Position numbers and translations under genes: made by a program. Shown here in pieces: positions 21,194-43,002 of a stretch of 64,000 bases of DNA. Numbering within the stretch: position 1 is the first letter of the stretch; each line of letters starts with the position of its first letter. Origin of the DNA: Ruminiclostridium herbifermentans (GTDB lineage: Bacteria > Bacillota > Clostridia > Acetivibrionales > DSM-1351); the NCBI RefSeq assembly GCF_005473905.2, contig NZ_CP061336.1:2782501-2846500 (forward strand). Direction: 5' to 3'. A model generated the notes under the pieces. The model did no database searches. It saw only the letters and a program-made list of their open reading frames with translations, and was not told where the DNA came from.

Positions 21194-22085
21194 AATTTAA
21201 TTCCTTATAGGTATTCTCTAAACTTTGGATGTCAAAGGACTTGAAGAAATAGCAAAAGAGTTTCAATTCCTTATAGGTATTCTCTAAACCAAAAATATAG
21301 ACATAGAAATAGATAAAAAACTAATGAGTTTCAATTCCTTATAGGTATTCTCTAAACCAAAACAATGAACTTGAGGAAGGGAATCAAAAGAATTGTTTCA
21401 ATTCCTCATAGGTATTCTCTAAACCTCTTTCAATATCATTTCTACTCACGCTATTATACGTGTTTCAATTCCTCATAGGTATTCTCTAAACCAGAATAAT
21501 TGTTGCTGCAGCTAGCAATAGAATTTTCGGTTTCAATTCCTCATAGGTATTCTCTAAACCTGTTTGCAATTTTCTCTTTTTTCATTTCAAGGCTGTTTCA
21601 ATTCCTCATAGGTATTCTCTAAACTCACCAGAGCCTGTTGCTCTGTGAATGTTCCATACATGTTTCAATTCCTCATAGGTATTCTCTAAACAGAAAGAAG
21701 CCCTACTCAAATTGCAAGAATGGAGAAAAGTTTCAATTCCTCATAGGTATTCTCTAAACGTTCGGTAAGGGTAAACGTAGACGGATATATTGAAATGTTT
21801 CAATTCCTCATAGGTATTCTCTAAACCTCTTTCAATATCATTTCTACTCACGCTATTATACGTGTTTCAATTCCTCATAGGTATTCTCTAAACAACGAAA
21901 TCTACACCGTTTTCTATGATACTATGTCGTTTCAATTCCTCATAGGTATTCTCTAAACGATTTATTAGACAAAAGTCGTACTATGAGAGCCATATTGGTT
22001 TCAATTCCTCATAGGTATTCTCTAAACATATGAGAGAGCAAGAAAAGAAATCAGAAATACCACTGTTTCAATTCCTCATAGGTAT
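21194..22085 (-). CRISPR. Type I-B CRISPR array, leader-distal segment (14 repeats, 13 spacers)
   Basis: 30-nt repeats (plus-strand reading starts GTTTCAATTCC and ends ATTCTCTAAAC) with a period of about 67. The first repeat (21194-21223) is degenerate, as expected for the leader-distal end. Repeats 1-3 carry CCTTATAGG; repeats 4-14 carry CCTCATAGG. The last (22065-22085) is cut by the IS21 element. The spacer at 21425-21461 is repeated exactly at 21827-21863, and that at 21492-21529 recurs, one base longer, at 24779-24817. Transcription is expected leftwards on minus from the leader at 31591, so these oldest spacers now lie behind an insertion sequence. Confidence 0.97.
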
Positions 22086-22133
22086 AAACTGTCAAGGAAA
22101 AATGTATAAAAAGTATTAAATAATTATGTACAA

Positions 22134-22886
22134 CTATTCTCCTTGCTTCATATGATCCTTTAATCTGTATGACTTTCCAGATATAGATATTACATGTGCA
22201 TGGTGCAATACCCTGTCAAGTATTGCATTGGCTACAACTGCGTCATAGAATACACCATCCCATTCGTTGAAATTCATGTTTGTTGTAAGAATGGTACTTT
22301 TTCTCTCATATCTCATATCTATAAGCTGAAAAAACATATTAGAATCTTCTTTATCAATGGGTAAGTAGCCAAGTTCATCAATGATAAGTAGTCTGTAATG
22401 GCAGAAGTGTCTGAGTCTTACATCAAGTCTGTTTTCCAGTTTTGCTTTCTTTAGTTGCTGCAATAAATCATGACATTTGATAAAATATGTGCTAGTACGT
22501 TTCTTTGCTGCAGCTATTCCTATTGATGTTGCCAGATGAGTCTTTCCAACACCACTTGGACCAAGAAATACTATATTCTCATTTCTTTCAAGAAAACCAA
22601 GCGTGCAAAGTTCTTGTATTTCTTGCTGATTTACTGACGGCTGAAAATTGAAATCATAATCTTTCAATTCCTTTACAAAAGGAAATGCTGCTGCTTTAAT
22701 CATAGATCTAGATGCTTTGGCCTCCTTAAAATCAACTTCGTAATTACTAAGTCTCAGTAGTCCTTCTGTAAACGAAAGATTGTTGGATGTCACAAAATTA
22801 GATATTTCATCAAGATGAATTACCATTTGCCCAAGACCAAGAATTTCCATGTTCCGGCATAGCTGGTTGTATGTACTGTTATTCAT
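22134..22886 (-). CDS. istB: IS21 helper ATPase IstB
   Basis: A 250-residue DnaC-like AAA+ ATPase that assists the IstA transposase in choosing its target. Walker A is LGPSGVGKTHLA near residue 108, Walker B RLLIIDELGYLP near 168, followed by YERKSTILTTNMNFNEW with sensor 1. Its ATG overlaps the istA end by 8 bp, the coupled arrangement typical of IS21. It is complete. The last 109 codons also survive as a fragment at 45419-45748. Confidence 0.95.
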   Translation of the reverse strand: MNNSTYNQLCRNMEILGLGQMVIHLDEISNFVTSNNLSFTEGLLRLSNYEVDFKEAKASRSMIKAAAFPFVKELKDYDFNFQPSVNQQEIQELCTLGFLERNENIVFLGPSGVGKTHLATSIGIAAAKKRTSTYFIKCHDLLQQLKKAKLENRLDVRLRHFCHYRLLIIDELGYLPIDKEDSNMFFQLIDMRYERKSTILTTNMNFNEWDGVFYDAVVANAILDRVLHHAHVISISGKSYRLKDHMKQGE

Positions 22887-24285: not shown

Positions 24286-27200
24286 GTTTCAATTCCTTAT
24301 AGGTATTCTCTAAACAATCTGCCAAAAGACGCAGAATATAGACAACAAAGTAGTTTCAATTCCTTATAGGTATTCTCTAAACGAATGACAAAGAAAGAAA
24401 AAATCATATTGGCAGTATTGTTTCAATTCCTTATAGGTATTCTCTAAACTAAAACAAGGTATGTAATGGAAAAATATGGATACATGTTTCAATTCCTTAT
24501 AGGTATTCTCTAAACTGAGGAATTTCGTTCTAGTTTAAGGATAAGTGAAATGTTTCAATTCCTTATAGGTATTCTCTAAACCAAGAAAAATTTACTGGTG
24601 GTCATGTTGAGATGGCGTTTCAATTCCTTATAGGTATTCTCTAAACTCATGTTGAGATGGCTAAGGGAACATCTATACAAAAGTTTCAATTCCTTATAGG
24701 TATTCTCTAAACTAAAAAATTCTTTACACAAAAAAATCCAATGCATAAGTTTCAATTCCTTATAGGTATTCTCTAAACACAGAATAATTGTTGCTGCAGC
24801 TAGCAATAGAATTTTCGGTTTCAATTCCTTATAGGTATTCTCTAAACACAACAAAGAAATATAATGACCTAAGAGATAAATTGTTGTTTCAATTCCTTAT
24901 AGGTATTCTCTAAACCTTCTTACTTTTTTAGTTCTCTGTCGTTGCAGTGTGAAGTTTCAATTCCTTATAGGTATTCTCTAAACCCAGCTCCTTTTGTATT
25001 TCTGAGGGTTCTGATGTTAGTTTCAATTCCTTATAGGTATTCTCTAAACACCAACGTATGTCATTGTACAACTAGCTAAATTATCGTTTCAATTCCTTAT
25101 AGGTATTCTCTAAACAGATACAGCAGAATTTGGAGAAGTAATAAAAATTCGGTTTCAATTCCTTATAGGTATTCTCTAAACGTTTTTGAATCTGATGAAT
25201 TAGGAATACTTATTGGAAGTTTCAATTCCTTATAGGTATTCTCTAAACAAAATGAAGACAATGAAATTGTTTGCACATCATGTGGGTTTCAATTCCTTAT
25301 AGGTATTCTCTAAACGCTATGGCAGGAAGTGAAACCTTTGAAAATTTTTGCAGGTTTCAATTCCTTATAGGTATTCTCTAAACTTATATATGCAGGTAAT
25401 GTTTTCTCAAAAGAAAGCAGTTTCAATTCCTTATAGGTATTCTCTAAACAATTGCCCTTTAAATCCATTTTAATTATTAGCATAGGTTTCAATTCCTTAT
25501 AGGTATTCTCTAAACCATGACAAGGATTTGGACAAAGATGGTAATTTAAAAAGTTTCAATTCCTTATAGGTATTCTCTAAACCTACTCCACAGAATTCAA
25601 CGGAGTTATAGGAAGTGAGTTTCAATTCCTTATAGGTATTCTCTAAACTTTGGCTTCTGCAAAGAAGACCGAGAAATTTATAGACGTTTCAATTCCTTAT
25701 AGGTATTCTCTAAACTTTTTAAGGTTGCTGTTATGGACTTATAAAGGTTTGTTTCAATTCCTTATAGGTATTCTCTAAACAACAGACCAATCAACATGGG
25801 GTTTTAACTTTTTCAAGTTTCAATTCCTTATAGGTATTCTCTAAACTACCTCTTTATTTACTTATATTATTTTATTATTTCGGTTTCAATTCCTTATAGG
25901 TATTCTCTAAACTTGGCTTCTGCAAAGAAGACCGAGAAATTTATAGACGTTTCAATTCCTTATAGGTATTCTCTAAACGGGGAATTATAGAAGACAGCAA
26001 ACACATAGATACAAGGTTTCAATTCCTTATAGGTATTCTCTAAACCAACAAGCCAGTGTTATAATTCGACTTAATTAGTGTTTCAATTCCTTATAGGTAT
26101 TCTCTAAACTTTTACAATCATTATAATTTAACCTTCTATTTTCATGTTTCAATTCCTTATAGGTATTCTCTAAACTATTATGCTAATCACCTACCTTTTA
26201 TTTTTATTTTGGTTTCAATTCCTTATAGGTATTCTCTAAACTGTACGGCATTAGGAATTTTACCTCCTATATTATGGTTTCAATTCCTTATAGGTATTCT
26301 CTAAACTTTGTCTTCTAGATAAGATAGGCTGTAATGTGCAGTTTCAATTCCTTATAGGTATTCTCTAAACTGTTTTGCGCTTTCCTCCACCCGTGTAACT
26401 CTCTCGGCGTTTCAATTCCTTATAGGTATTCTCTAAACCAATGTGAAAGCCGTCAAGGTAGACGGCGAAAAAATGTTTCAATTCCTTATAGGTATTCTCT
26501 AAACATGTTCAAATCCTGCTCAGCTTCTTCTATTTCTTCGTTTCAATTCCTTATAGGTATTCTCTAAACGCAATAGAAGGAATAAAAAAAGGTAGAAAAT
26601 ATTTTAGTTTCAATTCCTTATAGGTATTCTCTAAACTGCAGATTTAAATACAGCATTGGTTGAAGAACAACATTGTTTCAATTCCTTATAGGTATTCTCT
26701 AAACACATCCAAAGCCAGTATGTTCAATGACAGTAATTTCCGTTTCAATTCCTTATAGGTATTCTCTAAACCACGTTCTGGTGTATCTCTTCCAGTTCCT
26801 CAAACCGCGTTTCAATTCCTTATAGGTATTCTCTAAACGTACAATATTCATGTATACATAAAGAAGTTGTACGGGTTTCAATTCCTTATAGGTATTCTCT
26901 AAACTTTGGTTAGTCTAGGTTCTAGTATATCTAGTCTTGGTTTCAATTCCTTATAGGTATTCTCTAAACGAGTGTTATAGATGAACTATTTTATACATAC
27001 CCTTGTTTCAATTCCTTATAGGTATTCTCTAAACTTACCTATTTGGAGATTTTTAAAATTAACTGAATATGTTTCAATTCCTTATAGGTATTCTCTAAAC
27101 GAAACAGGTCAAAAATTTTTATGGGATTGGACAGATGTTTCAATTCCTTATAGGTATTCTCTAAACATCACTTGTATCTACAGCTTGAAATGGACTATTG

Positions 27201-30200
27201 GGGTTTCAATTCCTTATAGGTATTCTCTAAACAGTAGTTTAGATTATGGTGTTGATGTAATTGAATGTGTTTCAATTCCTTATAGGTATTCTCTAAACGT
27301 AACTCAAAAAGGCTCAGAAGAAGAATATATGTATTTGTTTCAATTCCTTATAGGTATTCTCTAAACTCCAATTGACTCCATACCTTGTTTAGAGAATACC
27401 TAGTTTCAATTCCTTATAGGTATTCTCTAAACCCCCGTCTGCATCTTCTTCTAGTTTTAGGTTATACAGGTTTCAATTCCTTATAGGTATTCTCTAAACG
27501 CGCAAGAGATTATAAAGGTATCGGAAATCAGTATAGTTTCAATTCCTTATAGGTATTCTCTAAACTTGAACTAAATGCTCCGGGTACATTTTCCCAGACC
27601 AGTTTCAATTCCTTATAGGTATTCTCTAAACTAAAAAAAGACTTTTTTAAACGCCATGACATACAGAGTTTCAATTCCTTATAGGTATTCTCTAAACAGT
27701 AGGTAATATATCTATATTATCTTCAAGTAAGTTTCAATTCCTTATAGGTATTCTCTAAACCAGATTTTGTATTTTCAAAGAGCTGAAAGGCTCTTTGTTT
27801 CAATTCCTTATAGGTATTCTCTAAACTTTAACCATGTAAATTTAGCCTTTATACCATCCCAGTTTCAATTCCTTATAGGTATTCTCTAAACTTCGAGTTT
27901 ATACCTATAGAATTTTCATAAAAATTAGTTTCAATTCCTTATAGGTATTCTCTAAACACCATCAACATCAATTTCAATTACTGCCGTAGGGTCGTTTCAA
28001 TTCCTTATAGGTATTCTCTAAACCAAATTGCACAGCTTTACAAAGAGTACTATGGACAAGTTTCAATTCCTTATAGGTATTCTCTAAACATGGATATTCT
28101 GCAACTGAAAATGTAATAGGTTATAGTTTCAATTCCTTATAGGTATTCTCTAAACATATTTCCACTGTCATATATAACAGTATTATCTTTGTTTCAATTC
28201 CTTATAGGTATTCTCTAAACTGGGCTTGCTAGAGGGTTTAACCTTCAAAATAAATTTGTTTCAATTCCTTATAGGTATTCTCTAAACTATAAATATATGT
28301 ATAGCATATTACAAAGAAAATTTGTTTCAATTCCTTATAGGTATTCTCTAAACTAAATCTATTACAGCAAACGTACTACATATAGGAATAGTTTCAATTC
28401 CTTATAGGTATTCTCTAAACAACACGTCCACCATTTTGTTTAGCATGTCCATACTCGTTTCAATTCCTTATAGGTATTCTCTAAACGCAAGCGTTATACT
28501 AAATGATAACTATACTATTTGTTTCAATTCCTTATAGGTATTCTCTAAACAATTTTTTATCATTAACAATTAAAGCTACATAAGCTGGTTTCAATTCCTT
28601 ATAGGTATTCTCTAAACGATTGAAAAAAACTTCCACCTATATATACAAAGTTAGTTTCAATTCCTTATAGGTATTCTCTAAACATTTATTAATAGTGTTT
28701 ATAATGCTATGAAAAAGGAGTTTCAATTCCTTATAGGTATTCTCTAAACCCGCATTCCATATAGAAAATAGAAAGCTTCAGATTTGTTTCAATTCCTTAT
28801 AGGTATTCTCTAAACTAGATTATATAGAAGAAATAGAGGTGTAGTAGATGTGTTTCAATTCCTTATAGGTATTCTCTAAACGTAGTGCAAAGGGGGTCTT
28901 GGACAGTTCGATAAATTAGTTTCAATTCCTTATAGGTATTCTCTAAACTAATGATTCTATTTATCCTACTGGTTTAATTCCAGGTTTCAATTCCTTATAG
29001 GTATTCTCTAAACTTTTCTGTTTCAAAAACGAAAATCGAACCAGTTTTTATGTTTCAATTCCTTATAGGTATTCTCTAAACTATACTAACTCTCTTCTGG
29101 TGGGGTTTCTTCTGCTTGTTTCAATTCCTTATAGGTATTCTCTAAACAATCAATTTTTAAGCCATCCTACAGACAAAAATTAGTTTCAATTCCTTATAGG
29201 TATTCTCTAAACTTTCGCCAAAAACGACGAGCAAAGACAAGTATTGATGTTTCAATTCCTTATAGGTATTCTCTAAACTTTAAAGAAAGTGCGCGCACCT
29301 TCAGACGTGGAGGGGTTTCAATTCCTTATAGGTATTCTCTAAACGCAAGAAATAATTTATTGTATTAAGCCATTCATTGTCGTTTCAATTCCTTATAGGT
29401 ATTCTCTAAACAGCCCTCCTGTGTAAGGTATATCTTGTGGAATTGAAAGTTTCAATTCCTTATAGGTATTCTCTAAACAAACTAAATGGAAGCAGGAAAA
29501 AAAATCCATAGTTATGTTTCAATTCCTTATAGGTATTCTCTAAACTATAATCTAAACACATTTAAACACGCTGAAACACAGTGTTTCAATTCCTTATAGG
29601 TATTCTCTAAACTCGCCTAAATTGTAGTTAACTTCAAAAATATTGTTGTTTCAATTCCTTATAGGTATTCTCTAAACTGACTACGTGAGATACAGGACCG
29701 TTATGAACGGTTGTTTCAATTCCTTATAGGTATTCTCTAAACCCAACCGGAGGTCGTGGGAAGTCACACAAATATTTGTTTCAATTCCTTATAGGTATTC
29801 TCTAAACATTCGGCGTTAAAGATAGCTTAATGCGGCAAATATGTTTCAATTCCTCATAGGTATTCTCTAAACAGCAGAATTTTTGGATTTAAATGGTGCA
29901 CATCATATGTTTCAATTCCTCATAGGTATTCTCTAAACAGCAGAATTTTTGGATTTAAATGGTGCACATCATATGTTTCAATTCCTCATAGGTATTCTCT
30001 AAACGGAAGAACTGGAGACCATATAAACGGATATTTAACGTTTCAATTCCTCATAGGTATTCTCTAAACATTGTGTATTTTCTGGCATGAGTCTAGAAAA
30101 ATTAAAGTTTCAATTCCTCATAGGTATTCTCTAAACGAAAAGTCATTATTTCAAGCGATATGAAAATATATGTGTTTCAATTCCTCATAGGTATTCTCTA

Positions 30201-31590
30201 AACACACAGGAATCCAATATTCCTGTTGAAAAGCAATAGTTTCAATTCCTCATAGGTATTCTCTAAACTCCCACAAGTCTGGTGCAATCTTTATAATGCT
30301 TTTAGGTTTCAATTCCTCATAGGTATTCTCTAAACCTCCTGTAACTGAATCAGTATATGTATTTGCTTCAGGTTTCAATTCCTCATAGGTATTCTCTAAA
30401 CAGCCGAATACAGAAAAATAAAAAGCAGACTTATTAAGTTTCAATTCCTCATAGGTATTCTCTAAACGTTCAGAAAATCCTGCCTCACTCCTTTTATTTA
30501 TGTTTCAATTCCTCATAGGTATTCTCTAAACTCGTTCAGAAAATCCTGCCTCACTCCTTTTATTTATGTTTCAATTCCTCATAGGTATTCTCTAAACCAT
30601 TACATGCAATATTTGTTGCACCTACTACTCCAGGTTTCAATTCCTCATAGGTATTCTCTAAACAGCCGAATACAGAAAAATAAAAAGCAGACTTATTAAG
30701 TTTCAATTCCTCATAGGTATTCTCTAAACTGTATGAATTTGCTGTAACAATTCTAAATCAGTCATGTTTCAATTCCTCATAGGTATTCTCTAAACAAACT
30801 TCTTGACCTTCTAGTTTTACTAAACTCTGAAGTTTCAATTCCTTATAGGTATTCTCTAAACAATCACCTTCTTTCGTGCTAGGTTCTAATACTTCTTGTT
30901 TCAATTCCTTATAGGTATTCTCTAAACTTCAATCCAGCCAAGTCTTAGCCATATTCTCATATTTTGTTTCAATTCCTTATAGGTATTCTCTAAACAACAT
31001 TATTCCCATGCCCTCCATGCGTTCCGGTGTGTTTCAATTCCTTATAGGTATTCTCTAAACGTCTATGCAGTTGCCTTGTATGCAGTATGTAGGTGTGTTT
31101 CAATTCCTTATAGGTATTCTCTAAACGTATTTCGCTGATAGTAAGAGAGAAGGACAGGCAGCGTTTCAATTCCTTATAGGTATTCTCTAAACGGAATTTC
31201 TACACTATTGGATGATGGCTTTATAATTCGTTTCAATTCCTTATAGGTATTCTCTAAACTTGTTTAAGTATTGTAGCTGGAATTGTAGGTTTAGGTTTCA
31301 ATTCCTTATAGGTATTCTCTAAACGTAAATCAACTATGGGAGCATTGCTTGCTCATAAACACTGTTTCAATTCCTTATAGGTATTCTCTAAACGTACATG
31401 TAAGAAGAATAAATGCTGAAATAGGAAGTTTCAATTCCTTATAGGTATTCTCTAAACGCAAATGATTTAGGGCAAATTCATTTAGTACTTACCTAGTTTC
31501 AATTCCTTATAGGTATTCTCTAAACTCGCGCGTCATAAGCGGAGCGACGCGCGTTTTACGGTTTCAATTCCTTATAGGTATTCTCTAAAC
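24286..31590 (-). CRISPR. Main type I-B CRISPR array (111 repeats, 110 spacers)
   Basis: I counted 111 repeats of 30 nt with spacers mostly 34-39 nt. In crRNA sense (minus) the repeat starts GTTTAGAGAATACC and ends AGGAATTGAAAC, so Cas6 cleavage would leave the usual ATTGAAAC handle. Repeats 1-84 (24286-29807) and 100-111 (from 30832) have CCTTATAGG; repeats 85-99 (29843-30795) have CCTCATAGG. The leader is at 31591-31766 beside cas2, so the newest spacer is 31526-31560. Exact spacer duplicates: 29873-29908 with 29939-29974, and 30402-30437 with 30664-30699. Length-variant duplicates: 25649-25685 with 25913-25948, and 30468-30501 with 30532-30567. Spacers 24582-24616 and 24647-24682 overlap by 15 nt. 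Confidence 0.99.
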
Positions 31591-31766
31591 CCATTTTTAT
31601 TTGCCACAAAAGCCACTAAAAGCAACTATTTGAGGCTTACTACTATAATTTACAGTAGAAACCAAAATTTATCAAGTGTTTTTAAAATAATCTTTAATTT
31701 CAGGCATTTCGGAGATTTTATTGTGCTGTCGACCCCCCATGTTTTTTGCACTATTACCTATCGACA
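31591..31766 (-). promoter_or_regulatory. CRISPR leader with promoter
   Basis: A 176-bp gap between cas2 and the first repeat. On minus it contains TTGATA (31670-31675), a 17-bp spacer and TAAATT (31647-31652), a good sigma-A-type promoter that would start transcription about 50 bp before the first repeat. Upstream, at about 31728-31745, is a conspicuous G-run and GGTCGAC block that may be an adaptation or host-factor site. New spacers should enter at 31590. Confidence 0.75.
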
Positions 31767-32030
31767 TCACAGAAAAACTGTTGGAACATTTTTTTCTAAC
31801 CCAATTATTTCTTTATGAGTATATCTAGTATTTGAAAAAGAATACAAGATTATTGAATCCTCTGATTTCTCCATCTTTTTTGTAAGTTCTATTTTTAATT
31901 TCTTTAAGTTGCCCTCTGTAATTTCCCCTTCGAAAACTGAATTTTGAACCCAAGTTAAGTATTTTCTACATATTTTTAATGCTTTGCCTACTCGCTTTTC
32001 ACCAAAATCATATACTAAAATAACGAACAC
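31767..32030 (-). CDS. cas2: CRISPR-associated endonuclease Cas2
   Basis: An 87-residue protein with the ferredoxin-like Cas2 fold; it bridges two Cas1 dimers in the spacer-integration complex. MFVILVYDFGEKRVGKALK carries the conserved Asp8, and CRKYLTWVQNSVFEGEIT is the family signature. Start is GTG at 32030 after AGGTGAT. It is the last gene of the operon and adjoins the leader. Length is normal. Confidence 0.95.
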   Translation of the reverse strand: MFVILVYDFGEKRVGKALKICRKYLTWVQNSVFEGEITEGNLKKLKIELTKKMEKSEDSIILYSFSNTRYTHKEIIGLEKNVPTVFL

Positions 32031-32035
32031 TTTAT

Positions 32036-32181
32036 CACCTCGCTATAAATGACTCAAAAACCAACGATGGACTTATTGAATGGCGCAAAATGCCACTTAC
32101 CACCTCACTATAAATAGGTCCTAATCGGCTAAATGGGTCGAGATATCAAACTGGCTGTAAACTACCACCTCGCTATAAATG
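32036..32181 (-). repeat. Three short repeats with an exact 65-bp period at the cas1/cas2 junction
   Basis: On plus, CACCTCGCTATAAATG (32036), CACCTCACTATAAATA (32101) and CACCTCGCTATAAATGG (32166) recur exactly 65 bp apart, while the sequence between them differs. The right copy encodes the end of Cas1 (FIARW); the left copy carries the AGGTG that serves cas2. Purpose unknown. Confidence 0.7.
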
Positions 32182-33154
32182 GCTCATAAACTTCTCCCTC
32201 TGTAATATGCTTTTGAAGCTTGTATGCTTCTAATCTTATAAGCCTTTTGTATGAAACCTTATTCTCGAGAGAAGGGTGTTTTATAGTAGTTTCTAGTTTG
32301 TCGTTAAATTCTTTTACAAACTTCATTCTACCTTCATCCTTCAATATAATGCCGCCTAAATCCTTGTTAAAATCCTTTGCAGTAATTATTTTTTTGTTTA
32401 TAACACTAAAAATAGTCCGGTCAACTATAATGGGTTTAAAAATTTCAGCCAAGTCTAAATTCAACGAAAACCTTCTATTATTTGTGGTATGCAGGTAACC
32501 TATTCTCGGATCTAAATTTGTTTGATATATCTGAGACAATACAATAGTATAAAGCATTGAATTTCCAAAGCTAATTAAACTGTTAATTTTGTCTTTTGGA
32601 GGTCTTTTAGTTCTGCTGGTAAAAGTAAACGCTTTATCATTAATTATTTTATTGAAGCACTTATAGTATTTTTCTCGTATATTACCTTCTATTGCCATTG
32701 CCTGTTCAATGGTTTCCTGACTACTTAATGAATCCAACATTTGAAGTATTTCTTCTATTTCCTGTGACAAATCTGCACTTCTGCTATTATAATATCTCAG
32801 AACTTGAATTATATTTTTTACACTTCCATCAATAAACTGTTTTGCAATAAATAATCTCTTATTGTAGTCAATATAAAACTCGCTCTGTCTTAGTGTAACA
32901 AAACCTGAATTGAGACATTCTCTTGGATAAAAACTTCCTATGTAGTATTCATAATAATTATAAAAATGCAGAACAATTTCATTGGTGCATAAGAATTCCA
33001 GCAAGCTTTTATTTATATCTACCTCGCCGAAAATATATATACTTTCAACATTATTTACAGGAATATACTTTTTTCCTTCAACACTTTCAAAAAGCAATGT
33101 ATTGTCCTTTCTAACAAGCTTTCCGCCATTAAAAATATAAATATCCTTTTTCAA
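32162..33154 (-). CDS. cas1: CRISPR-associated integrase Cas1 (type I-B)
   Basis: A 330-residue Cas1 of the I-B subfamily. The metal ligands are Glu156 (AIEGNIREKYY), His222 (IGYLHTTNNRR) and Glu237 (LDLAEIFKP with Asp234). Cas1 with Cas2 integrates protospacers at the leader end. SRTKRPPKDKINSLISFGNSML is the conserved central helix. It is preceded 15 bp upstream by cas4. Length is normal and all catalytic residues are present, so adaptation should be possible. Confidence 0.97.
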   Translation of the reverse strand: MKKDIYIFNGGKLVRKDNTLLFESVEGKKYIPVNNVESIYIFGEVDINKSLLEFLCTNEIVLHFYNYYEYYIGSFYPRECLNSGFVTLRQSEFYIDYNKRLFIAKQFIDGSVKNIIQVLRYYNSRSADLSQEIEEILQMLDSLSSQETIEQAMAIEGNIREKYYKCFNKIINDKAFTFTSRTKRPPKDKINSLISFGNSMLYTIVLSQIYQTNLDPRIGYLHTTNNRRFSLNLDLAEIFKPIIVDRTIFSVINKKIITAKDFNKDLGGIILKDEGRMKFVKEFNDKLETTIKHPSLENKVSYKRLIRLEAYKLQKHITEGEVYEPFIARW

Positions 33155-33168
33155 TACTAATCACCGCC

Positions 33169-33660
33169 CTATGCATAGCAATATTCTAAATAGCCACAAT
33201 TTTTACAGTATTTACATTTTTCAGCCTTAGGAGGCTCTTCCTTCTCTATAATAGAGTTAATATCCAAAATCATATTATTCAGAGTCTGAATACTAGTATC
33301 ATCCAGCAGCACCTCATCCCGACGCTTTTCTTCAGGATAAAGCATAACGCCTTCGGCATTTATTCCTGCATCTTTAAGAGTTTTTAAGTAGAACATCATC
33401 TGCCATTTAGAAGCTGCTTCATACTTTGATGATTTTTTTGTTTCACCTATTACTAATTTATCTTTTGTATCAAGAATTACATCAAATTTTACAGACCCAA
33501 AGCTTATCTCTTTTTTCTTTCGTGAAAATGAATTCTCATGTAAAAATTTGCCCAAATCAATATTTTCATTATGCTGATCCGGCACTATATTTCTTGACAT
33601 TAGCCATACTTCTCTTTTGCAGATATTATAATACCAAATTAATGTTCCATTAACCTCCAC
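33169..33660 (-). CDS. cas4: CRISPR-associated exonuclease Cas4
   Basis: About 163 residues from the GTG at 33660, which follows GGAGGTGAT; the open frame extends 13 codons further without a ribosome-binding site. Cas4 is a RecB-like nuclease with a 4Fe-4S cluster that trims prespacers and selects the PAM and orientation. One cysteine is near residue 14 (YNICKREVW), three more are in CKYCKNCGYLEYC at the C-terminus; the nuclease core has FDVILDTKDKLVIGETKKS and KWQMMFYL (QhxxY-type motif). Confidence 0.93.
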   Translation of the reverse strand: MEVNGTLIWYYNICKREVWLMSRNIVPDQHNENIDLGKFLHENSFSRKKKEISFGSVKFDVILDTKDKLVIGETKKSSKYEAASKWQMMFYLKTLKDAGINAEGVMLYPEEKRRDEVLLDDTSIQTLNNMILDINSIIEKEEPPKAEKCKYCKNCGYLEYCYA

Positions 33661-33766
33661 AAAATCACCTCCAAAACAGAGCACATGCATTAATCCCACA
33701 TATATAGTTTTCCTTTTGAAAATGATACTACTAATAACCTAATAGTAAATCTAACTAATAAATTTA

Positions 33767-36064
33767 CTAATAAAAAAATGCATCATTATTTTCAGATATA
33801 AAGCCTGTACAATTATAAAACTGGGAAACATTTGGTTTGGGAACAATTAAATACGGTGCATCAATATACGAGTAAATTTCATTAAATCTCCACGGCATAT
33901 TTTTGACTAATTTATTAGTTCTGACTTTCACTGTATATTGGTTTATCAACATGGTTTTCTGCTTAATTTCATCTCGAATATCATAGCTTTTATTCTTTGA
34001 ATATTCTTTTCTCAAAGCACAATATTCCTCTAAAGCTTCTGTTATAATATCATCCTTTTCAATAATCACATCATGAATATTCTGCTCATCAATAAGCTTA
34101 AATTTGGAAATTTCTTCATAATCAAGTTTATGTACAGCCTCCCAGATTTCTCTGTTATAGGATTTATCCTCAAGCATTTCAGTATAATAGCTGTCAACCA
34201 AATTTACATATTCATTTTCCTTTATATTTCCGCTTAAATACTTTTTAGTTTTATCAATTCTATATAATTTGTAAACTTGGCTGCCTTTACCGCTTTCAAA
34301 AATATAAACTGGGCTATGAGGCACCTTTTTGCCATTTCTGTTCACTCTTCCTGCAACCTGAATAATTGATTCAAGAGGAGCAAGATCTCTATACCCAATA
34401 TCAAAATCTAAATCAACTCCTGCTTCTATAGTCTGTGTAGATACAAGAATAAAAGGTACTTTATCCTTTATCAGTTTTTGACAATCTTCAATAACTTTCT
34501 TTCTGTCCACGCTGATTAAATTTGTAGACAAATATAGAACCGTATGGCCATCTTTAATTAATTTATTATACAATTCGATGCTAGATGCTATTGTATTTAC
34601 AACAACAAGAGCATTCCTATAACAAGGCTTGGTTTTATGAATCAATTCTGCGATATCATCAATTTCATATATTTTTTCAAAGCAAGGTATCAGCATTGTT
34701 CTTTCTAATTCCATAAAATATCGTCTGCCATCCTGAAGCAGCTCAATTGCTGACATTTCGCTATCATCAAGAAGCATATTAGCATATTCAATTATTTTAG
34801 GCTGAGTAGCAGTCATAAGAATAAACCAAATACCATAGTAATCAGATATTTTTTTAATTACAGCCCCTAATAAGGGATAATATTGAGGAGGAAGCGATTG
34901 AATTTCATCCAAAACCACTATACTTCCCGACATTTTATTAAGCTTCATAAGCCTGTTATTCTTCGCAGTAAGAATGCTTTCAAAAAACTGCACAAAGGTA
35001 GTCATTATTACGTTGCTTTCCCATGTATCCGTTAGTAACGACTTTTCATGCAGATTAGTCATATCTGATTCATCGTACTCTTTTAAATTACTCAAGCAAT
35101 GGTGTACGAGGACATTTTTGAAAATGCTATTATAATCTTCCTTCGTCTGCTCAAGAATATTTACAAAAGGAATTGCTACAATTATATTTGGTTCTGTTCC
35201 ATATATTTTCTTTAATCTTTCAGAAAGTCTTAGTTCTGCAGCAACACTTGTAAGAGTTTTGCCAGCTCCTGTAGGTGCAGTAAAAGTAAATATTCTATTG
35301 TTTTTAAGTTCCTCATCTGTAAGTCTGTTTATTGTTTCAAGCACTTTGCATCTTATCTCATTTCGCTGATTTTGCATATTACTTTGCTGACCCTTAGATT
35401 TCTTTAAAATATGGTCATCCAAAGCAGCAATTGTAGGAAGCTTTTCCTGCTGTTTTCGATAAATCCCGGCAGAATCCAATTTGTCAAAGCATATGAGAGA
35501 AGAAAAAATGTATTGAAGTACAAAAAAGTGAAGAGGTGTTCTACGTCTTATATTAATCATTCTATTTTTATATTTAATAACTTCCTCAATTTCCTTAATT
35601 TCAAGCTCTGACCTGTCAATATCAAGATAATCCATATTAAATGAATTCTCTTTTACTGTCTTAATAAAATTATTATATTGCTTAATCAAGTCATTCCAAT
35701 TAATGCTATCAAAATAGGTACTTAAGCTTCCATGATGATTGTAAATAGCAATTAACCCTAAATATATTAACTCCTTAGAAAAGCTGTCTTCACACATTTT
35801 AACAAAGACAGAAGAGGATAAAAAGGAATGTGACTTCAATTCATTTTCTATGCCTTTAGTCAAATAGCTTTGAAAATAAGTAGTAGCTTTCCCCAAGTCA
35901 TGATATCTTCCTACTAATGTCAAAAGCTTTTTAAAATCTTCGTTAGGTATTCCTTCAAAGGACAAATAGCACAGCCTATCTGTCATCAAATCAGATACAT
36001 TTTTCAAATGGTCATATAATAATTGTTCCTCATTTTTATCTCTGTCAAAATGTGCATACAGCAT
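33767..36064 (-). CDS. cas3: CRISPR-associated helicase-nuclease Cas3 (HD fused)
   Basis: A 765-residue protein with an N-terminal HD nuclease (His19; RYHDLGK with His55 and Asp56; HSFLSS; IYNHHGS) and a superfamily 2 helicase: Walker A TAPTGAGKT near 270, DEIQ box VVLDEIQSLPP near 375, MTATQP, then STQTIEAGVDLDFD and QVAGRVNRNG. It is recruited by Cascade after target recognition and degrades DNA. GAGGTGG precedes the ATG. The 266 bp upstream contain two diverged copies of this start region. Confidence 0.97.
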   Translation of the reverse strand: MLYAHFDRDKNEEQLLYDHLKNVSDLMTDRLCYLSFEGIPNEDFKKLLTLVGRYHDLGKATTYFQSYLTKGIENELKSHSFLSSSVFVKMCEDSFSKELIYLGLIAIYNHHGSLSTYFDSINWNDLIKQYNNFIKTVKENSFNMDYLDIDRSELEIKEIEEVIKYKNRMINIRRRTPLHFFVLQYIFSSLICFDKLDSAGIYRKQQEKLPTIAALDDHILKKSKGQQSNMQNQRNEIRCKVLETINRLTDEELKNNRIFTFTAPTGAGKTLTSVAAELRLSERLKKIYGTEPNIIVAIPFVNILEQTKEDYNSIFKNVLVHHCLSNLKEYDESDMTNLHEKSLLTDTWESNVIMTTFVQFFESILTAKNNRLMKLNKMSGSIVVLDEIQSLPPQYYPLLGAVIKKISDYYGIWFILMTATQPKIIEYANMLLDDSEMSAIELLQDGRRYFMELERTMLIPCFEKIYEIDDIAELIHKTKPCYRNALVVVNTIASSIELYNKLIKDGHTVLYLSTNLISVDRKKVIEDCQKLIKDKVPFILVSTQTIEAGVDLDFDIGYRDLAPLESIIQVAGRVNRNGKKVPHSPVYIFESGKGSQVYKLYRIDKTKKYLSGNIKENEYVNLVDSYYTEMLEDKSYNREIWEAVHKLDYEEISKFKLIDEQNIHDVIIEKDDIITEALEEYCALRKEYSKNKSYDIRDEIKQKTMLINQYTVKVRTNKLVKNMPWRFNEIYSYIDAPYLIVPKPNVSQFYNCTGFISENNDAFFY

Positions 36065-36330: not shown

Positions 36331-37095
36331 TCATTTCACAAATAGATAGCTTTTATTTTCTACAGAAATGTAATCTGTTCCATTGTGTAATACTGCTGAA
36401 ACAGGCGTATCTAGCAGGTTTACCAATAGCTTTTTCTTTGAATCTGCTGTAATAAACCTGTTTTCATCAAACTCAGTGATACTTTCCTCTTTTATAACTG
36501 AAAATTCATATGATTCTGGAACCTCTAAGTATTTCAAATGTTCAATATTTATTGCCCCAAATATTTTCAGCTTCTCTCCAGTACTTTTATGTTCCTCAGC
36601 CTCAACTACCTTGGCATTTTGAATCCAACCAAGGCATTGTGCACTACCTAACGCCATACAAATGCCTTTACTAGAGTAAAAACTAGAACCATTACATAAA
36701 AGCTTTGATAGTTCATCTATTATAGAATCATTCTTGTGCCAAAATATAATTTGATAGCTGACATGCCCAGTTCTGATGTTCTTAGGTATAATAAACTCAG
36801 TATCATTCTGTGTTCTATTAGCAGCAGAACCGTTTAAATGGCTTATTCTCTCAACCTTAAGCAAATTCATTCTCTGTGTCATTTTTTTTATTGGAGAATT
36901 AACACAAACAGCAATTTTACATAAATTATTCGAGAACAATTCATAATATGTATCTCTCTCATATCCCAACAAACCAGCCAGCATTCCTTTTATCGTAGCA
37001 ACAGGCGGAAGCATATAAGATAATGCAGTTGAATTAGAATAATATTTTCTAAAATGAGCCATCTTGCCATTTAGCTCAAAGGATAGGACTTTCAT
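36331..37095 (-). CDS. cas5: Cascade subunit Cas5 (type I-B)
   Basis: A 254-residue RAMP protein. It caps the 5' handle of the crRNA in Cascade. The N-terminal MKVLSFELNGKMAHFRKYY and LPPVATIKGMLAGLLGY are typical of Cas5h/Cas5b. It begins 4 bp after cas7 ends, with GGACGGTGAT upstream. The usual interference genes surround it. Confidence 0.95.
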   Translation of the reverse strand: MKVLSFELNGKMAHFRKYYSNSTALSYMLPPVATIKGMLAGLLGYERDTYYELFSNNLCKIAVCVNSPIKKMTQRMNLLKVERISHLNGSAANRTQNDTEFIIPKNIRTGHVSYQIIFWHKNDSIIDELSKLLCNGSSFYSSKGICMALGSAQCLGWIQNAKVVEAEEHKSTGEKLKIFGAINIEHLKYLEVPESYEFSVIKEESITEFDENRFITADSKKKLLVNLLDTPVSAVLHNGTDYISVENKSYLFVK

Positions 37096-37099
37096 ATAA

Positions 37100-38014
37100 T
37101 CACCGTCCTGCTTTTATTTGATCAAGCATATCAACAGATGCTGCATCAGGTAATCCTGACACATTTGTAAACTGACTGCTTTTCCATAGTATTACATCCT
37201 TGATGTATCCTTTCTTCTTTAACAGATTCAATTCATCTGATAATGCTGAAAAGTCAACCTTTATGTCATTGCCGCTTCTAATTGGTGTCTCTGGATTGTA
37301 ATGGGCTTTTATAAACCTTCTCAAATCGCCTAGATAACCATCAAAATTTTCGTCATAAATCACTTCAAGATACATTAGAGGTATCTGTCCCTGCTTAGAA
37401 TGAGTTAGATTATTCATCATAGATTGGACAAGAGATTTTCTGAAAATGCTTAAATCCTCTTGGCTCATTCTTGTTTTCTTTGCAGCATACTTATTTACAC
37501 TTCCGCTATGAGCAATCAAAGCATAATGAGCCTTATACATTTTCCCAAAGGTTGAGCTGTCATCATTCATAATGGTAACTATAGAGCTTGATTTTACTAA
37601 ATCTACAGGGTGAAGTGAATAACCCCAGCTAATTTGAACAGGTCCTGTAAAGGTTTTTGTAATTCCACCCACCGCCATTGCACTTCCAAATAATCTCATA
37701 TCAATATGATTATCAAGTATTGCATCAATTTTTTTATCCTCCGGTACATCTTTACCATCAACACCATATTTTTTTAGAACCGCATCAAACTTCTTGTCCA
37801 TAGTAACCTTAGTACCATTCATTGTGGCAACAAATATGTCATAGCCTTTTTCCTCAAGAAAATCTCTGCAATCCCTCTTTCTTCTTACATCACTAACTAA
37901 CAGTGTCTTTGTTTCATAATCCATTCTAGGCTTATTTTCCTGGTCTGGATCACCATTAGGATTTGTCATAGTACCCTCAAACAAGAATAAAAATTCACTA
38001 TTGTTCACTATCAT
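37100..38014 (-). CDS. cas7: Cascade backbone subunit Cas7 (Csh2 type)
   Basis: A 304-residue Cas7 of the Csh2 family, several copies of which coat the crRNA. FLFEGTMTNPNGDPDQENKP is the conserved start; DMRLFGSAMAVGGITKTFTGPVQ is the family core. Its ATG lies inside the end of cas8b (17-bp overlap) after GAGGAGGACA, indicating coupled translation. Confidence 0.96.
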   Translation of the reverse strand: MIVNNSEFLFLFEGTMTNPNGDPDQENKPRMDYETKTLLVSDVRRKRDCRDFLEEKGYDIFVATMNGTKVTMDKKFDAVLKKYGVDGKDVPEDKKIDAILDNHIDMRLFGSAMAVGGITKTFTGPVQISWGYSLHPVDLVKSSSIVTIMNDDSSTFGKMYKAHYALIAHSGSVNKYAAKKTRMSQEDLSIFRKSLVQSMMNNLTHSKQGQIPLMYLEVIYDENFDGYLGDLRRFIKAHYNPETPIRSGNDIKVDFSALSDELNLLKKKGYIKDVILWKSSQFTNVSGLPDAASVDMLDQIKAGR

Positions 38015-40019
38015 TTTCAGTGTCCTCCTCAGAATCTATATTTGATTTTTTATAGTTATCCACGCAAAAAGCGTAGCCTGACATTATGTAAAACACATTT
38101 TCTTTTTCATTCAGCAGCTTAACTGATGATAAATCTCCAAAATTCAAATGCATTTGCTTTTGAAGCCTTTCAAACCACCATAAGTTTACATTCTTTTGAT
38201 ACTGTCTAGTTTTTTCAATAACCTCTAAATACAGCTGAACTACATCCTTAGAATTCATGCCCCCAAAGGATATTTTATCAAGTATAGGCTTTTGGGTATG
38301 TTTGCTTCTGGCTTGTGCCACACCTATTTGATATATCATTGTACCTAGATAAAATAGACCCTTTGCCTCTTTTGAAAATCCATTTGAATTCAAAAATATT
38401 TCCATTTCTGCAATTCTCTCTGGCAAACCACTTGTGATCTGTTCTGCAATTTCCAATTGAAAAACCTCCTTATTTAGTATTTTCAGCTTTTGTAAGCTTT
38501 TGAAGAAGCATATATATGACATAACTATTCTTTTTATGTATCTGTCCGTATATCTAAAGTCCTTGCTCTTTTTCTGCTCATTATAATAGAATTCAAGGCC
38601 GTAAAGATTCCTGTAGTTTCTGAGTTCAGAGGATTTTAATTGCATTACTCCTTTTTCTAAAGCATCACATGCCAATTCCATTATTTCATTCTTATCAATT
38701 AATTCCCCTTGAATAACAGCACTTATTAAATTGAGCACTCGCTTGATGTTTAACTGTGTTCCCTTTTTATCTGTAGTAACTGGAACAATTCTATAGATAT
38801 GTCCAAGGTTAAAATACCTCAGATATTGACTCATTGTCAGTCTGCATTCCTCAAATATCTTTTGAATGTATATGAATTTAGCATTTGAGATACTTTCAAT
38901 AGTTTTCTTAATTGCACATGAATTACCATCTGTTTTGTAAAAAATTATACTGAAATAGAAATTTTCTACCTCTTGGAAATAGTTTATTTCTTGATTTAGT
39001 TCATCAAACCATTCGTCAGATTCTTTTGGACTGAAAACAATATCAATATTTTCTTTTAGTCTTTGATAACAGCTGTATTCAATATCCTCATACAAGCCTT
39101 CAAACAGTAATACAACATCCTCTCCAGCTATTTTGGACTTCATTTCACTCATTGCTTTATTTTCACCAGATTTAAGCAAGCTTGCACATGAGCCGCAAAT
39201 TGAAAATACACTGTCAAATTTATTTTTATCAAAATTAGGAGCATAATTTATAGTGGTTGTAACAAAGGCTTTACTAATACTGCTTCTAGCCAGTTTTCCG
39301 CTGTAAGCTACAGTATTTACATCATCACATGAGTTATTACATATATGGCAAATATAATTTGATTTTGCTCCTTCTGACTGACCCTGGATTTGATTTTCAC
39401 AAAGTTCCAAGTAATCCTTGTGATTTGATATAACATGTTTTGAACTATTATGGATAATCCTTGGTATGACTAGACAGATTTTCTCTGCATTTCTGGCTCC
39501 AATATAAGCCAAAAACAATTTTTCAGCAGATGACTTTTCGCCATTCACATATACAGCCTTTTCCTTATTCTCTTTAACAAATTTCACCTCAAAGCTTTCA
39601 TTATCTCGAGGAATTATCTTTTCACAATTGAGTCCATTAATGTTGAATAACTCTGCTTTTTCACATTCCTTCAGCAACTCATGTAATTGGCCACCTTCTA
39701 GAGAATCCAATAAATTTTTCAAAACACCCTTGCTCTTACCAAACCAATAGTACAAAATGCTTGCAGCATCCCTAACTGCGTAAAACTGTACATTTGATGC
39801 ACTATTATTTCCAAAATAGTTATACTCCTTTTCGCTAGCAGCATAATAAGGCTGAAAATCCAACTCAATACACTGCTTGTCCAAATTTAAATCTAAAAAT
39901 ACATTAATCAAATCCTTCTTTAAATCCTTTGACATCAGCTTTATACTCTTACCAAGCTTGTCATAAATTCCTCCTTCCGAGCTTCTGCCAATATCGGCAA
40001 TCAGCAACGGCATGTCCAT
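37998..40019 (-). CDS. cas8b: Cascade large subunit Cas8b (Csh1 type)
   Basis: A 673-residue Csh1-family protein, the subtype I-B marker that reads the PAM and recruits Cas3. A zinc-binding region with CHICNNSC and CGSCASL (about 225-290) is visible, and the C-terminal half is helical (FYLGTMIYQIGVAQARSKH). The ATG directly follows the cas6 stop (TAAATGG) with AGGAGGTGC upstream. Sequence is poorly conserved in this family, so the call leans on position as well as these features. Confidence 0.93.
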   Translation of the reverse strand: MDMPLLIADIGRSSEGGIYDKLGKSIKLMSKDLKKDLINVFLDLNLDKQCIELDFQPYYAASEKEYNYFGNNSASNVQFYAVRDAASILYYWFGKSKGVLKNLLDSLEGGQLHELLKECEKAELFNINGLNCEKIIPRDNESFEVKFVKENKEKAVYVNGEKSSAEKLFLAYIGARNAEKICLVIPRIIHNSSKHVISNHKDYLELCENQIQGQSEGAKSNYICHICNNSCDDVNTVAYSGKLARSSISKAFVTTTINYAPNFDKNKFDSVFSICGSCASLLKSGENKAMSEMKSKIAGEDVVLLFEGLYEDIEYSCYQRLKENIDIVFSPKESDEWFDELNQEINYFQEVENFYFSIIFYKTDGNSCAIKKTIESISNAKFIYIQKIFEECRLTMSQYLRYFNLGHIYRIVPVTTDKKGTQLNIKRVLNLISAVIQGELIDKNEIMELACDALEKGVMQLKSSELRNYRNLYGLEFYYNEQKKSKDFRYTDRYIKRIVMSYICFFKSLQKLKILNKEVFQLEIAEQITSGLPERIAEMEIFLNSNGFSKEAKGLFYLGTMIYQIGVAQARSKHTQKPILDKISFGGMNSKDVVQLYLEVIEKTRQYQKNVNLWWFERLQKQMHLNFGDLSSVKLLNEKENVFYIMSGYAFCVDNYKKSNIDSEEDTENDSEQ

Positions 40020-40778
40020 TTAAAGCACCTCCTCATCTTTAGGCAAAATAAATCCGAACCCTTGTGAATTCTTGCTTCCTATACCGCTTGCAAAAGCCAT
40101 CTTCTTTAATTCCTCTGATCCTGATATTTTAAAATCACCACTATATGCCTTAATAACGAATCCTTTGTAAATTATGATTCTTTCTGCTATTTTCCCTAGA
40201 GGCTTTATAGAAAAAGACGTATCCTCAGGCTCTTTATCATAAAAAGCACAATATTTTTTTATTAAATTTTTTCTTATATTCTCTGAAAATTGCTCTTCAT
40301 ATGGTGTGTAATAGTACGTTTTCTTTTTCCCGTCAGCAGAAAATAAGGTACTGTAGGTGGTTATTGGTGAAAGAGTTCTCACCTCCATTTCCTCTTTATA
40401 ATTTTGAACATCCTGTCTGAAAAATACATTTGAAATGTGCGCTAGATTGTTATGGATTCGCAGTTCTTTTTCGCTGACAGCAAAGCTTTGAAATATGTAT
40501 TTAAGAAATTCAGCATCAACACATGATATGTAAATGGAAATCTCCTCAGGAAAGACAAATTTTTTCGTTTCTCTGTCAATTTTCAATGGCTTGGTAATGA
40601 TGTTAGAAAAGGAAAAAAGCTTAAAACTGCGCTTATTATGTGTATATCCATTGTTATGTAAAAAATTCGAATACTCTTCATCATTAATAAATTTATATAA
40701 CAATGCTTGAATTATATGGTTATACTGAAATGGTAGTACAATTTTATCAGAACTGCTAATGGTTAATCTGCAATACAT
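40020..40778 (-). CDS. cas6: crRNA-processing endonuclease Cas6
   Basis: A 252-residue RAMP-fold ribonuclease that cuts the repeat 8 nt before its 3' end. Features: N-terminal LPFQYNHIIQALLYKFI with a histidine in the usual region, and the C-terminal glycine-rich loop ASGIGSKNSQGFGFILP. It is the first gene of the cas operon, with AAAGGAG upstream of the ATG. The repeat has little secondary structure, so Cas6 presumably reads sequence. Confidence 0.95.
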   Translation of the reverse strand: MYCRLTISSSDKIVLPFQYNHIIQALLYKFINDEEYSNFLHNNGYTHNKRSFKLFSFSNIITKPLKIDRETKKFVFPEEISIYISCVDAEFLKYIFQSFAVSEKELRIHNNLAHISNVFFRQDVQNYKEEMEVRTLSPITTYSTLFSADGKKKTYYYTPYEEQFSENIRKNLIKKYCAFYDKEPEDTSFSIKPLGKIAERIIIYKGFVIKAYSGDFKISGSEELKKMAFASGIGSKNSQGFGFILPKDEEVL

Positions 40779-41490: not shown

Positions 41491-42968
41491 TAATCAATTC
41501 CTTATAGGTATTCTCTAAACGTTACACCAGCACGTTTTACTAGTACTTGTTTTTCTGAGTTTCAATTCCTTATAGGTATTCTCTAAACATTGGAGGGAGT
41601 TTAATTTCCCGAAACGGTATGATGTTTCAATTCCTTATAGGTATTCTCTAAACTTAGTGTTGACCTCCAACTTTGCTCTTTCTCCTTTGGTTTCAATTCC
41701 TTATAGGTATTCTCTAAACTGAAAAATTTAAAAGGTACAGAAAAGATTTGTATAGTTTCAATTCCTTATAGGTATTCTCTAAACGCTTTTTTATTTACAT
41801 ATAATTATGCAGCCAACTAATGTTTCAATTCCTTATAGGTATTCTCTAAACTTCTTTCGGTTCTCTAATTTCACATTCAGTGTTGAAAGTTTCAATTCCT
41901 TATAGGTATTCTCTAAACGACTTTGATTCTATAAAAATGGTTAGAAAACAAAGTTGTTTCAATTCCTTATAGGTATTCTCTAAACCAGAACTAAAAGAGC
42001 TTATTAAATAGGAGGGATTGTAGTTTCAATTCCTTATAGGTATTCTCTAAACCTCTGAAGAAGAATACATTGACAGCCTGAAAAAATTGTTTCAATTCCT
42101 TATAGGTATTCTCTAAACTGTCTAGGTCTTTAATAGTTCCCCGAATAATATTATGTTTCAATTCCTTATAGGTATTCTCTAAACTTAGAAAAGGATATTA
42201 TAAAGATTCTTATGATTATGGTTTCAATTCCTTATAGGTATTCTCTAAACGGATTTGAGAGTAAAGATCATCGAGCAGGATATATTATGTTTCAATTCCT
42301 TATAGGTATTCTCTAAACAGCAACATGCGACAGATACTGAGTTTACCCAAATTAGTTTCAATTCCTTATAGGTATTCTCTAAACCCACAATTACTTAAAA
42401 TTATTGAGAGAGATGAATTTGTTTCAATTCCTTATAGGTATTCTCTAAACTAAGTTGGGATAATGCAGCACTATACACTGTAAAAGGTTTCAATTCCTTA
42501 TAGGTATTCTCTAAACGATGCCTTTTTAATTGACTGTAAATTGCAGTTCCTTCGTTTCAATTCCTTATAGGTATTCTCTAAACAGCAGGAGACAATTGGG
42601 TAGGAATGAGAGTAATATAGTTTCAATTCCTTATAGGTATTCTCTAAACTCCTAAACAGAATTTAACAATAACTAATAATGAAAAGTTTCAATTCCTTAT
42701 AGGTATTCTCTAAACATACTATGTATATACATAGTAGTATTGATTGGAAAGTTTCAATTCCTTATAGGTATTCTCTAAACTCAGAGGGAGGTTTATATTA
42801 TGATTACAGTTGTATGTTTCAATTCCTTATAGGTATTCTCTAAACTTTGAATATAGTAATATATTAATATTTATCTGCTGAGTTTCAATTCCTTATAGGT
42901 ATTCTCTAAACAAATGCCTTTAGCACCATTCATGTATATTGGTATATGTTTCAATTCCTTATAGGTAT
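41491..42968 (-). CRISPR. CRISPR array 2 (23 repeats, 22 spacers), leader end removed by IS66
   Basis: The same 30-nt repeat, all CCTTATAGG type. The first repeat (41491-41520) is degenerate (starts TAATCAATTCC), marking the leader-distal end; the last (42948-42968) is cut after 21 nt by IS66. The leader should lie to the right but is gone, so this array has no obvious promoter and should not gain spacers. No spacer is shared with array 1 by eye. The spacer at 42716-42750 contains the palindrome ACTATGTATATACATAGT. Confidence 0.97.
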
Positions 42969-43002
42969 GTAAGCGTCAAATAGAAAAGCACCTTGACAAA
43001 AC

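Follow-up and report, generated by a model that had tools for sequence, protein, structure and literature searches.

CRISPR loci have been described as hot spots of spacer uptake in E. coli, P. furiosus and H. volcanii (passages of PMC8406132, PMC10011333 and PMC7521656), the hot spot of H. volcanii appearing during mating and near its CRISPR loci (PMC7521656, same passages). Matches of spacers to CRISPR-related genes or to CRISPR-flanking sequences are also listed in part of an archaeal spacer survey (PMC3285040). On the side of the invaders, solitary repeats on phages can function as RNA anti-CRISPRs, as set out in passages of PMC10651486, and virus-borne mini-CRISPR arrays have been published (passages of PMC6858448). 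Here we analyze a stretch of 64,000 nucleotides of Ruminiclostridium herbifermentans DNA, referred to below as the window, and describe a spacer at 27367-27402 (spacer 27367) that is a genuine, rare and cleanly bounded storage of CRISPR-type DNA.

The CRISPR-Cas locus of the window

The window contains three arrays, A1, A2 and A3, all built on one 30-nt repeat, GTTTCAATTCCTYATAGGTATTCTCTAAAC (plus strand), and a set of cas genes lying between A2 and A3 on the minus strand in the order cas6-cas8b-cas7-cas5-cas3-cas4-cas1-probable cas2. This gene set beside arrays with repeats ending in ATTGAAAC identifies the locus as type I-B.

21194-22085, minus strand: array A1, 13 repeats plus a truncated one adjoining IS21 genes; leader-distal repeat degenerate
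24286-31590, minus strand: array A2, 111 repeats (96 T-variant, 15 C-variant) and 110 spacers
31591-31766, minus strand: leader region of A2, between probable cas2 and the array, assigned by position and orientation
31767-32030, minus strand: probable cas2 (87 aa), by size and position only
32162-33154, minus strand: cas1 of type I-B (TIGR03641, 453 bits)
33169-33699, minus strand: cas4 (TIGR00372)
33767-36064, minus strand: cas3, helicase and HD nuclease (TIGR01587, TIGR01596)
36331-37095, minus strand: cas5 (TIGR02593 above cut-off; the I-B model TIGR02592 below cut-off)
37100-38014, minus strand: cas7/csh2 (TIGR02590)
37998-40019, minus strand: cas8b/csh1-like gene (TIGR02591 at E 4e-12, below cut-off)
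40020-40778, minus strand: cas6 (TIGR01877)
41491-42968, minus strand: array A3, 22 repeats plus a truncated one adjoining an IS66 gene; leader-distal repeat degenerate

NCBIfam models thus scored above cut-off for Cas1b, Cas4, Cas3, Cas5, Csh2 and Cas6, and below it for Cas8b/Csh1. The best-scoring Cas7 relatives that bear a name are from Firmicutes.

Allowing up to 3 mismatches, 146 repeat copies were counted in the window (30-nt pattern) and 146 in the whole genome (25-nt pattern), so that all repeat copies lie in the window. Two variants exist: the T-variant (121/146) holds an internal TTA, in the context CCTTA/TAGG, and the C-variant (25/146) has TCA there instead. The orientation can be judged from the sequence: on the minus strand ATTGAAAC closes the repeat, degenerate repeats stand at the left ends of A1 and A3, and A2 has its cas1-cas2 side on the right. 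The crRNA strand would accordingly be the minus strand.

The repeat variants are arranged in blocks (21395-22027, 29843-30795 and 30832-31590), A2 running from T-variant through 15 C-variant repeats back to T-variant and A1 from T to C, which points to recombination between arrays. A1 and A3 both stop, on their leader side, after GTTTCAATTCCTYATAGGTAT, beside the IS21 and IS66 genes, respectively (22065-22134 and 42948-43003); the identity of the two break points is curious. Three pairs of spacers are identical duplicates (21425/21827, 29873/29939 and 30402/30664). Three further pairs (25649/25913, 30468/30532 and 21492/24779) coincide at the PAM-side end but are unequal in length by 1-2 nt, which would fit two uptakes of a single protospacer.

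A spacer containing repeat sequence

The spacer under study and its surroundings are as follows.

27367-27402, minus strand: spacer 27367, 36 nt, no. 64 of 110 counted from the leader side of A2
27387-27402, minus strand: repeat-derived part, 16 nt; guide positions 1-16, seed side
27367-27386, minus strand: non-repeat part, 20 nt; guide positions 17-36; in the source, presumably the beginning of the next spacer or flanking DNA
27403-27432, minus strand: repeat transcribed before the spacer; partner of guide 1-16 in the hairpin predicted for the unit
27337-27366, minus strand: repeat transcribed after the spacer; in the predicted mature crRNA, guide 1-16 is paired with the first 16 nt of this repeat

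In crRNA sense the spacer reads TAGGTATTCTCTAAAC followed by AAGGTATGGAGTCAATTGGA. The initial annotation had stated, with exact coordinates, that it ends in 16 bases which are the exact reverse complement of the right part of the repeat, and indeed 27387-27402 (GTTTAGAGAATACCTA) is the exact reverse complement of the repeat's last 16 nt. The identity of these "last 16 bases" holds, but not the orientation that the phrase implies: with the minus strand as crRNA strand, the repeat-derived 16 nt would form the seed-side 5' end of the guide and not its tail. All 146 repeats have TAGGTATTCTCTAAAC as their exact plus-strand end, and GTTTAGAGAATACCTA occurs a single time on the plus strand of the window.

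Among the remaining spacers of the window, which holds 143 in total, the longest match to the repeat is 10 nt. In a control of 1000 sets, in which every spacer was shuffled base by base, a 16-nt match was never reached; the best shuffle gave 14 nt, once. The comparison was widened to 2583 distinct spacers from 65 array calls, drawn from the window, from 77 contigs that surround Cas7 relatives and from 18 genome stretches of relatives, with one stretch (L057) called twice and one call (L115) unlike a CRISPR; spacer 27367 was the sole spacer of normal length to contain more than 12 nt of its own repeat. Two long intervals, of 58 nt in L186 (17-nt repeat match) and of 49 nt in L065 (12 nt), have the look of truncated repeats. 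Spacer 27367 thus contains exact repeat sequence (16 nt) beyond chance, as is expected of capture from a CRISPR array. Another spacer, 29412-29448, has a guide starting with TTTCAATTCC, 10 nt of which equal the left end of the repeat; matches of at least 10 nt arose in 307 of the 1000 shuffled sets, so this likeness is within chance.

TTA as the likely PAM

TTA is likely to be the PAM of this I-B system, as several lines of sequence comparison indicate. The guide of spacer 27367 starts directly behind TTA in CCTTA/TAGG, the sole TTA on that strand of the repeat, so the start of the protospacer adjoins, within the repeat, the motif that is the likely PAM (CCTTA/TAGG in 121/146 repeats). Spacers 24582 and 24647 overlap by 15 nt, which places CCCTTA ahead of 24582. 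When overlapping spacers were sought in 13 I-B array groups (1531 spacers), with pairs below 90% identity over the overlap filtered out, eight motifs from five groups were obtained, five times TTA and three times TTG, the two motifs of G046, and likewise those of G024, coming from both members of a single reciprocal pair. For spacer 21692, a 34/38 target lies behind TTA in a congener (G009) and again in a viral contig; the two are probably one and the same prophage sequence. Published data agree: TTA was measured as the best PAM of a Parageobacillus I-B system (passages of PMC10551041), and TTA, TTG and TTN stand in the part of a published PAM list that covers I-B (PMC8482600).

Against TTA, the phage target of spacer 28421 (32/36) has CTT. 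Spacer 27566 resembles 14 sites (L135, L142, L143, L148, L154, L196-L204), 2 of which have TTA; its best site (35/36) has GGA, and the spacer was not counted for TTA. The best matches in L146, L147 and L149-L152 range from 25/34 to 30/38, with flanks TAA, AAT, CTT, ATT, CTT and GGT, and were not counted as targets. Few spacers of these arrays matched anything in the database searches, one of which returned 7 records (2 spacers) and another 92 records, mostly weak or repeat-only among the matches listed (60 of 92); three further searches yielded no usable match. If TTA is the PAM, T-variant I-B repeats hold an internal PAM (121/146, the C-variant having TCA), and the repeat would be only partly shielded from the acquisition step of its own system.

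Searches for the source of the spacer

As in the window, where the initial annotation had seen no repeat followed by the 20-nt part, no second copy adjoining a repeat was found at up to 3 mismatches in the 4.82-Mb genome. One other genome match, at 373634, falls in what is by eye an apparent histidine-kinase reading frame and was judged to be chance. In 11 family genomes (the own genome and 10 congeners) the 20-nt part matched only itself at up to 2 mismatches. IMG/VR contained no exact copy, a looser search for the junction being likewise empty, and blastn against 50,697 phage and 72,556 plasmid records gave partial matches only (E 4-5). For an Acetoanaerobium match that came up in the source search, the annotation at that place is empty. 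The check proposed in the initial annotation, to look for the 20-nt part beside a repeat, therefore gave a negative answer in the own genome, 10 congeners, IMG/VR (exact search), phages and plasmids, and no array in any of these collections contains the junction repeat/AAGGTATGGAGTCAATTGGA.

The repeat itself is similarly restricted. Its 24-nt core occurs in no GTDB r220 contig searched (own-genome records possibly left out), versions of 21-28 nt occur in no viral contig, and the only congener with a similar repeat, G004, is changed inside the 16 nt; within these searches this species is therefore the only known holder of the exact repeat. A 12-nt likeness between spacer 24450 and the middle of spacer 27367 was attributed to chance, as several other pairs share 11-12 nt.

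Predicted folding and effect of the guide

Complementarity to the repeats is unavoidable for any spacer taken antisense from its own repeat, and the present guide can pair with the half-repeat on either side. The 96-nt unit of spacer 27367 has a predicted fold of -27.7 kcal/mol (z -4.75), ranking first among 143 units, and predicted pairing of guide positions 1-16 with repeats is 0.99 against a median of 0.22, again ranking first of 143. Pairing of the entire preceding repeat, relevant to access by Cas6, is predicted at 0.59 (median 0.46, rank 2/143). The predicted mature crRNA forms a 16-bp stem over guide 1-16 (-21.6 kcal/mol).

Guide positions 1-16 match all 146 of the strain's own repeats, 121 of them behind TTA. 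Apart from the spacer itself, the genome yielded no full 36-nt target, so cleavage of the arrays is not expected. In a Parageobacillus I-B system, truncated guides with less than 26 nt of complementarity repress without cleavage (passages of PMC10551041); by analogy, a 16-nt match would permit at most binding. On the folding model, the self-complementarity should hinder Cas6 processing or mask the seed, and spacer 27367 is probably inert or nearly inert; poor processing or a masked seed would explain why it is tolerated. Regulation of the own arrays by this guide through its 16-nt matches was considered and not adopted, given the lack of a full target and the predicted self-folding. The change from T- to C-variant repeats as an escape from the guide was also rejected, T-variant repeats returning after the C block.

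Origin of the spacer

The explanation that we favour, at a probability of roughly 0.6, is PAM-guided capture from a type I-B array with the same repeat, belonging to this strain or to a conspecific. Normal acquisition by Cas1-Cas2-Cas4 would have taken a 36-nt prespacer from an I-B array bearing this repeat, either the cell's own at an earlier time or a conspecific's on incoming DNA. The TTA inside the repeat (CCTTA/TAGG) would have been recognised as PAM, and the prespacer would have comprised, in antisense direction, the last 16 nt of the repeat and the first 20 nt of the adjoining spacer. The piece would then have been inserted in A2, where 63 spacers now separate it from the leader; it is old if insertion occurs at the leader. 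We infer three elements of this account: the array as source, the later loss of the source spacer or its never having been in the lineage, and the order of insertion.

The repeat part of spacer 27367 stops exactly at the end of the repeat, as a repeat/spacer junction predicts, and such exactness to the last base favours a real array as the source. The strain's own arrays have apparently lost material, since A1 and A3 each end, on the leader side, in a truncated repeat beside the IS21 and IS66 genes, respectively; loss of the source spacer is therefore plausible, and a conspecific array is equally possible. Of the array capture proposed in the initial annotation, the uptake of DNA with this repeat is upheld (start behind the internal TTA, stop at the repeat's end), but not the array as its source, the junction having been found in none of the collections searched. 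Some considerations also weigh against an array: a spacer that the cell took from its own array behind a good PAM ought to do harm for as long as the source junction persists, passages of PMC7521656 present experiments of its authors without a hot spot at CRISPR loci, and in the I-B system of C. difficile the preferred chromosomal donors are terC and transposon genes (passages of PMC8406132).

Neither a self-target nor a later loss is required if the spacer came from a solitary repeat unit (Racr-like) or mini-array that bore the host's repeat on a virus or plasmid, the 20 nt then being the flank of this mimic. Holding the internal TTA, a mimic could yield a spacer to the host's own acquisition machinery. 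We scanned IMG/VR for the core TTTCAATTCCTYATAGGTA and obtained 38 stretches; taking as solitary a copy with no neighbour within 160 nt, 13 of these 38 loci hold solitary I-B repeat cores (12 contigs, that of L220 also having arrays).

Solitary I-B repeat units in viral contigs: L213, L214, L217, L220, L224, L225, L228, L230, L231, L234, L236, L238, L241

With their conserved core and variable crRNA-sense 5' ends, these 13 units are, by sequence, candidates for RNA anti-CRISPRs. Repeat-like units were also found in Parageobacillus and Paenibacillus phages; in L173, L174 and L175 they are paired, about 40 nt apart and hence closer than a normal array allows. Solitary units of the family thus exist in viral contigs, but the exact 36 nt has no match at a solitary repeat there, and no viral contig contains CCTNATAGGTATTCTCTAAAC, the 20-nt part or the looser junction. 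Moreover, 9 of the 13 units lack the AAC end and none has the right end of this host's repeat, whereas spacer 27367 is exact to the repeat's last base. On balance, we regard a solitary repeat or mini-array as the main rival to an array, though the less likely source.

Part of the case for such a source comes from spacers that start with TAGGTA directly after GGAATTGAAAC. There are five of them in four genomes, two (27367 and 31458) in array A2; in overlapping genome sets, the junction GGAATTGAAAC/TAGGTA was present in one genome of the class (391 searched), three of the phylum (398), one of the order of G695 (4) and two of the order of G651 (113). Over the next 10 nt, agreement with the own repeat is 10 for spacer 27367, 7 for that of G695, 6 for G845, 5 for 31458 and 1 for G651, which was retained in the count. 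Compared with 1648 other spacers, the four besides 27367 resemble their own repeats above chance (joint p = 0.005; singly 0.007, 0.03, 0.11 and 0.96), but the set is small and was examined after the fact, and diverged arrays of other species could fit as well. A TAGGT start is in itself not clearly in excess (4/1644 versus 1.6 expected, some loci of the set having been chosen for TAGGT). Post hoc, these spacers weakly suggest a small class derived from repeat-like elements cut at the internal PAM, and their diverged ends seem, again weakly, to fit solitary mimics or foreign arrays better than an own array; the diverged-repeat likeness in two to three of the four hints at another source of such spacers.

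Spacer 31458-31495, the second-youngest complete spacer of A2, starts with TAGGTAAGTACTAAATG and resembles the right end of the repeat at 11/16 nt; it could be derived from a diverged repeat or a solitary mimic. A repeat of the type predicted from it was found neither in 60 relatives nor in viral contigs. The spacers in L208 (G695) and L247 (G845) start at the same internal repeat point and resemble their own repeats over 12 contiguous nt and at 12/16 nt, respectively. A mimic can imitate the T-variant repeat only by carrying CCTTATAGGTA, and the TTA within it is the likely host PAM, so imitation would expose the mimic to acquisition. That I-B hosts in fact store spacers from virus-borne repeat mimics, with 27367, 31458-31495 and the G695 and G845 spacers as four anti-mimic memories, seems to us quite unlikely.

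Two explanations dispense with capture of repeat DNA altogether. In template switching during replication, an inverted copy of a neighbouring repeat would have overwritten the end of an ordinary spacer within the array; the inverted copy does adjoin a repeat and is able to pair over 16 bp with the half-repeats on both sides. Its two ends, however, lie exactly on repeat/spacer borders, the bases past each end differ from what a local fold-back would copy, the spacer still has the modal length of 36 nt and its start coincides with the putative PAM site, which together make such an event very unlikely. A coincidence, that is, an unrelated phage or chromosomal target sharing 16 nt with the repeat, might be entertained on the ground that unidentified targets are the rule for these arrays, few of whose spacers were matched in the searches. 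It is exceedingly improbable, considering that none of the 1000 shuffled sets attained 16 nt and that the match begins behind TTA and ends at the repeat's end.

Comparison with known systems

Spacer 27367 is a record, kept in nature, of the uptake of CRISPR-type DNA, and its boundary lies where the putative PAM predicts. It lends itself as a natural test case for two questions: whether folding onto its own repeat silences a guide, and whether repeat-mimicking anti-CRISPR RNAs get recorded as spacers. Within the part of the literature covered, we met no account of a spacer that contains repeat sequence and folds onto its repeat, nor of spacers directed against solitary repeats.

Racr and other solitary units, together with virus mini-CRISPR arrays, resemble the present case as repeat-like viral DNA, some of it with this very core, and are a possible source (passages of PMC10651486 and PMC6858448). 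They differ in that no solitary unit with this host's exact right end was found, and the passages of PMC10651486 and PMC6858448 in question describe no spacers from such units. A second likeness is to the leader-repeat hairpins of Cas13 systems, in which pairing of non-repeat RNA with the repeat blocks processing of the first repeat (passages of PMC13187072); hindered processing is predicted here as well. That hairpin is a feature of type VI leaders and was shown by experiment (PMC13187072, same passages), whereas ours is a prediction for a captured I-B spacer.

Our preferred reading, capture from an array with the same repeat, has its closest parallels in E. coli I-E, in P. furiosus and in mating H. 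volcanii I-B, where, in the passages available on these systems, a CRISPR locus likewise supplies the spacer DNA and the PAM guides uptake. The hot spots described in those passages represent fresh uptake, mostly near the loci, whereas spacer 27367 is retained and presumably old, contains repeat sequence and has a junction that is absent from the genome. It is a rare and instructive case, new but of a known kind.
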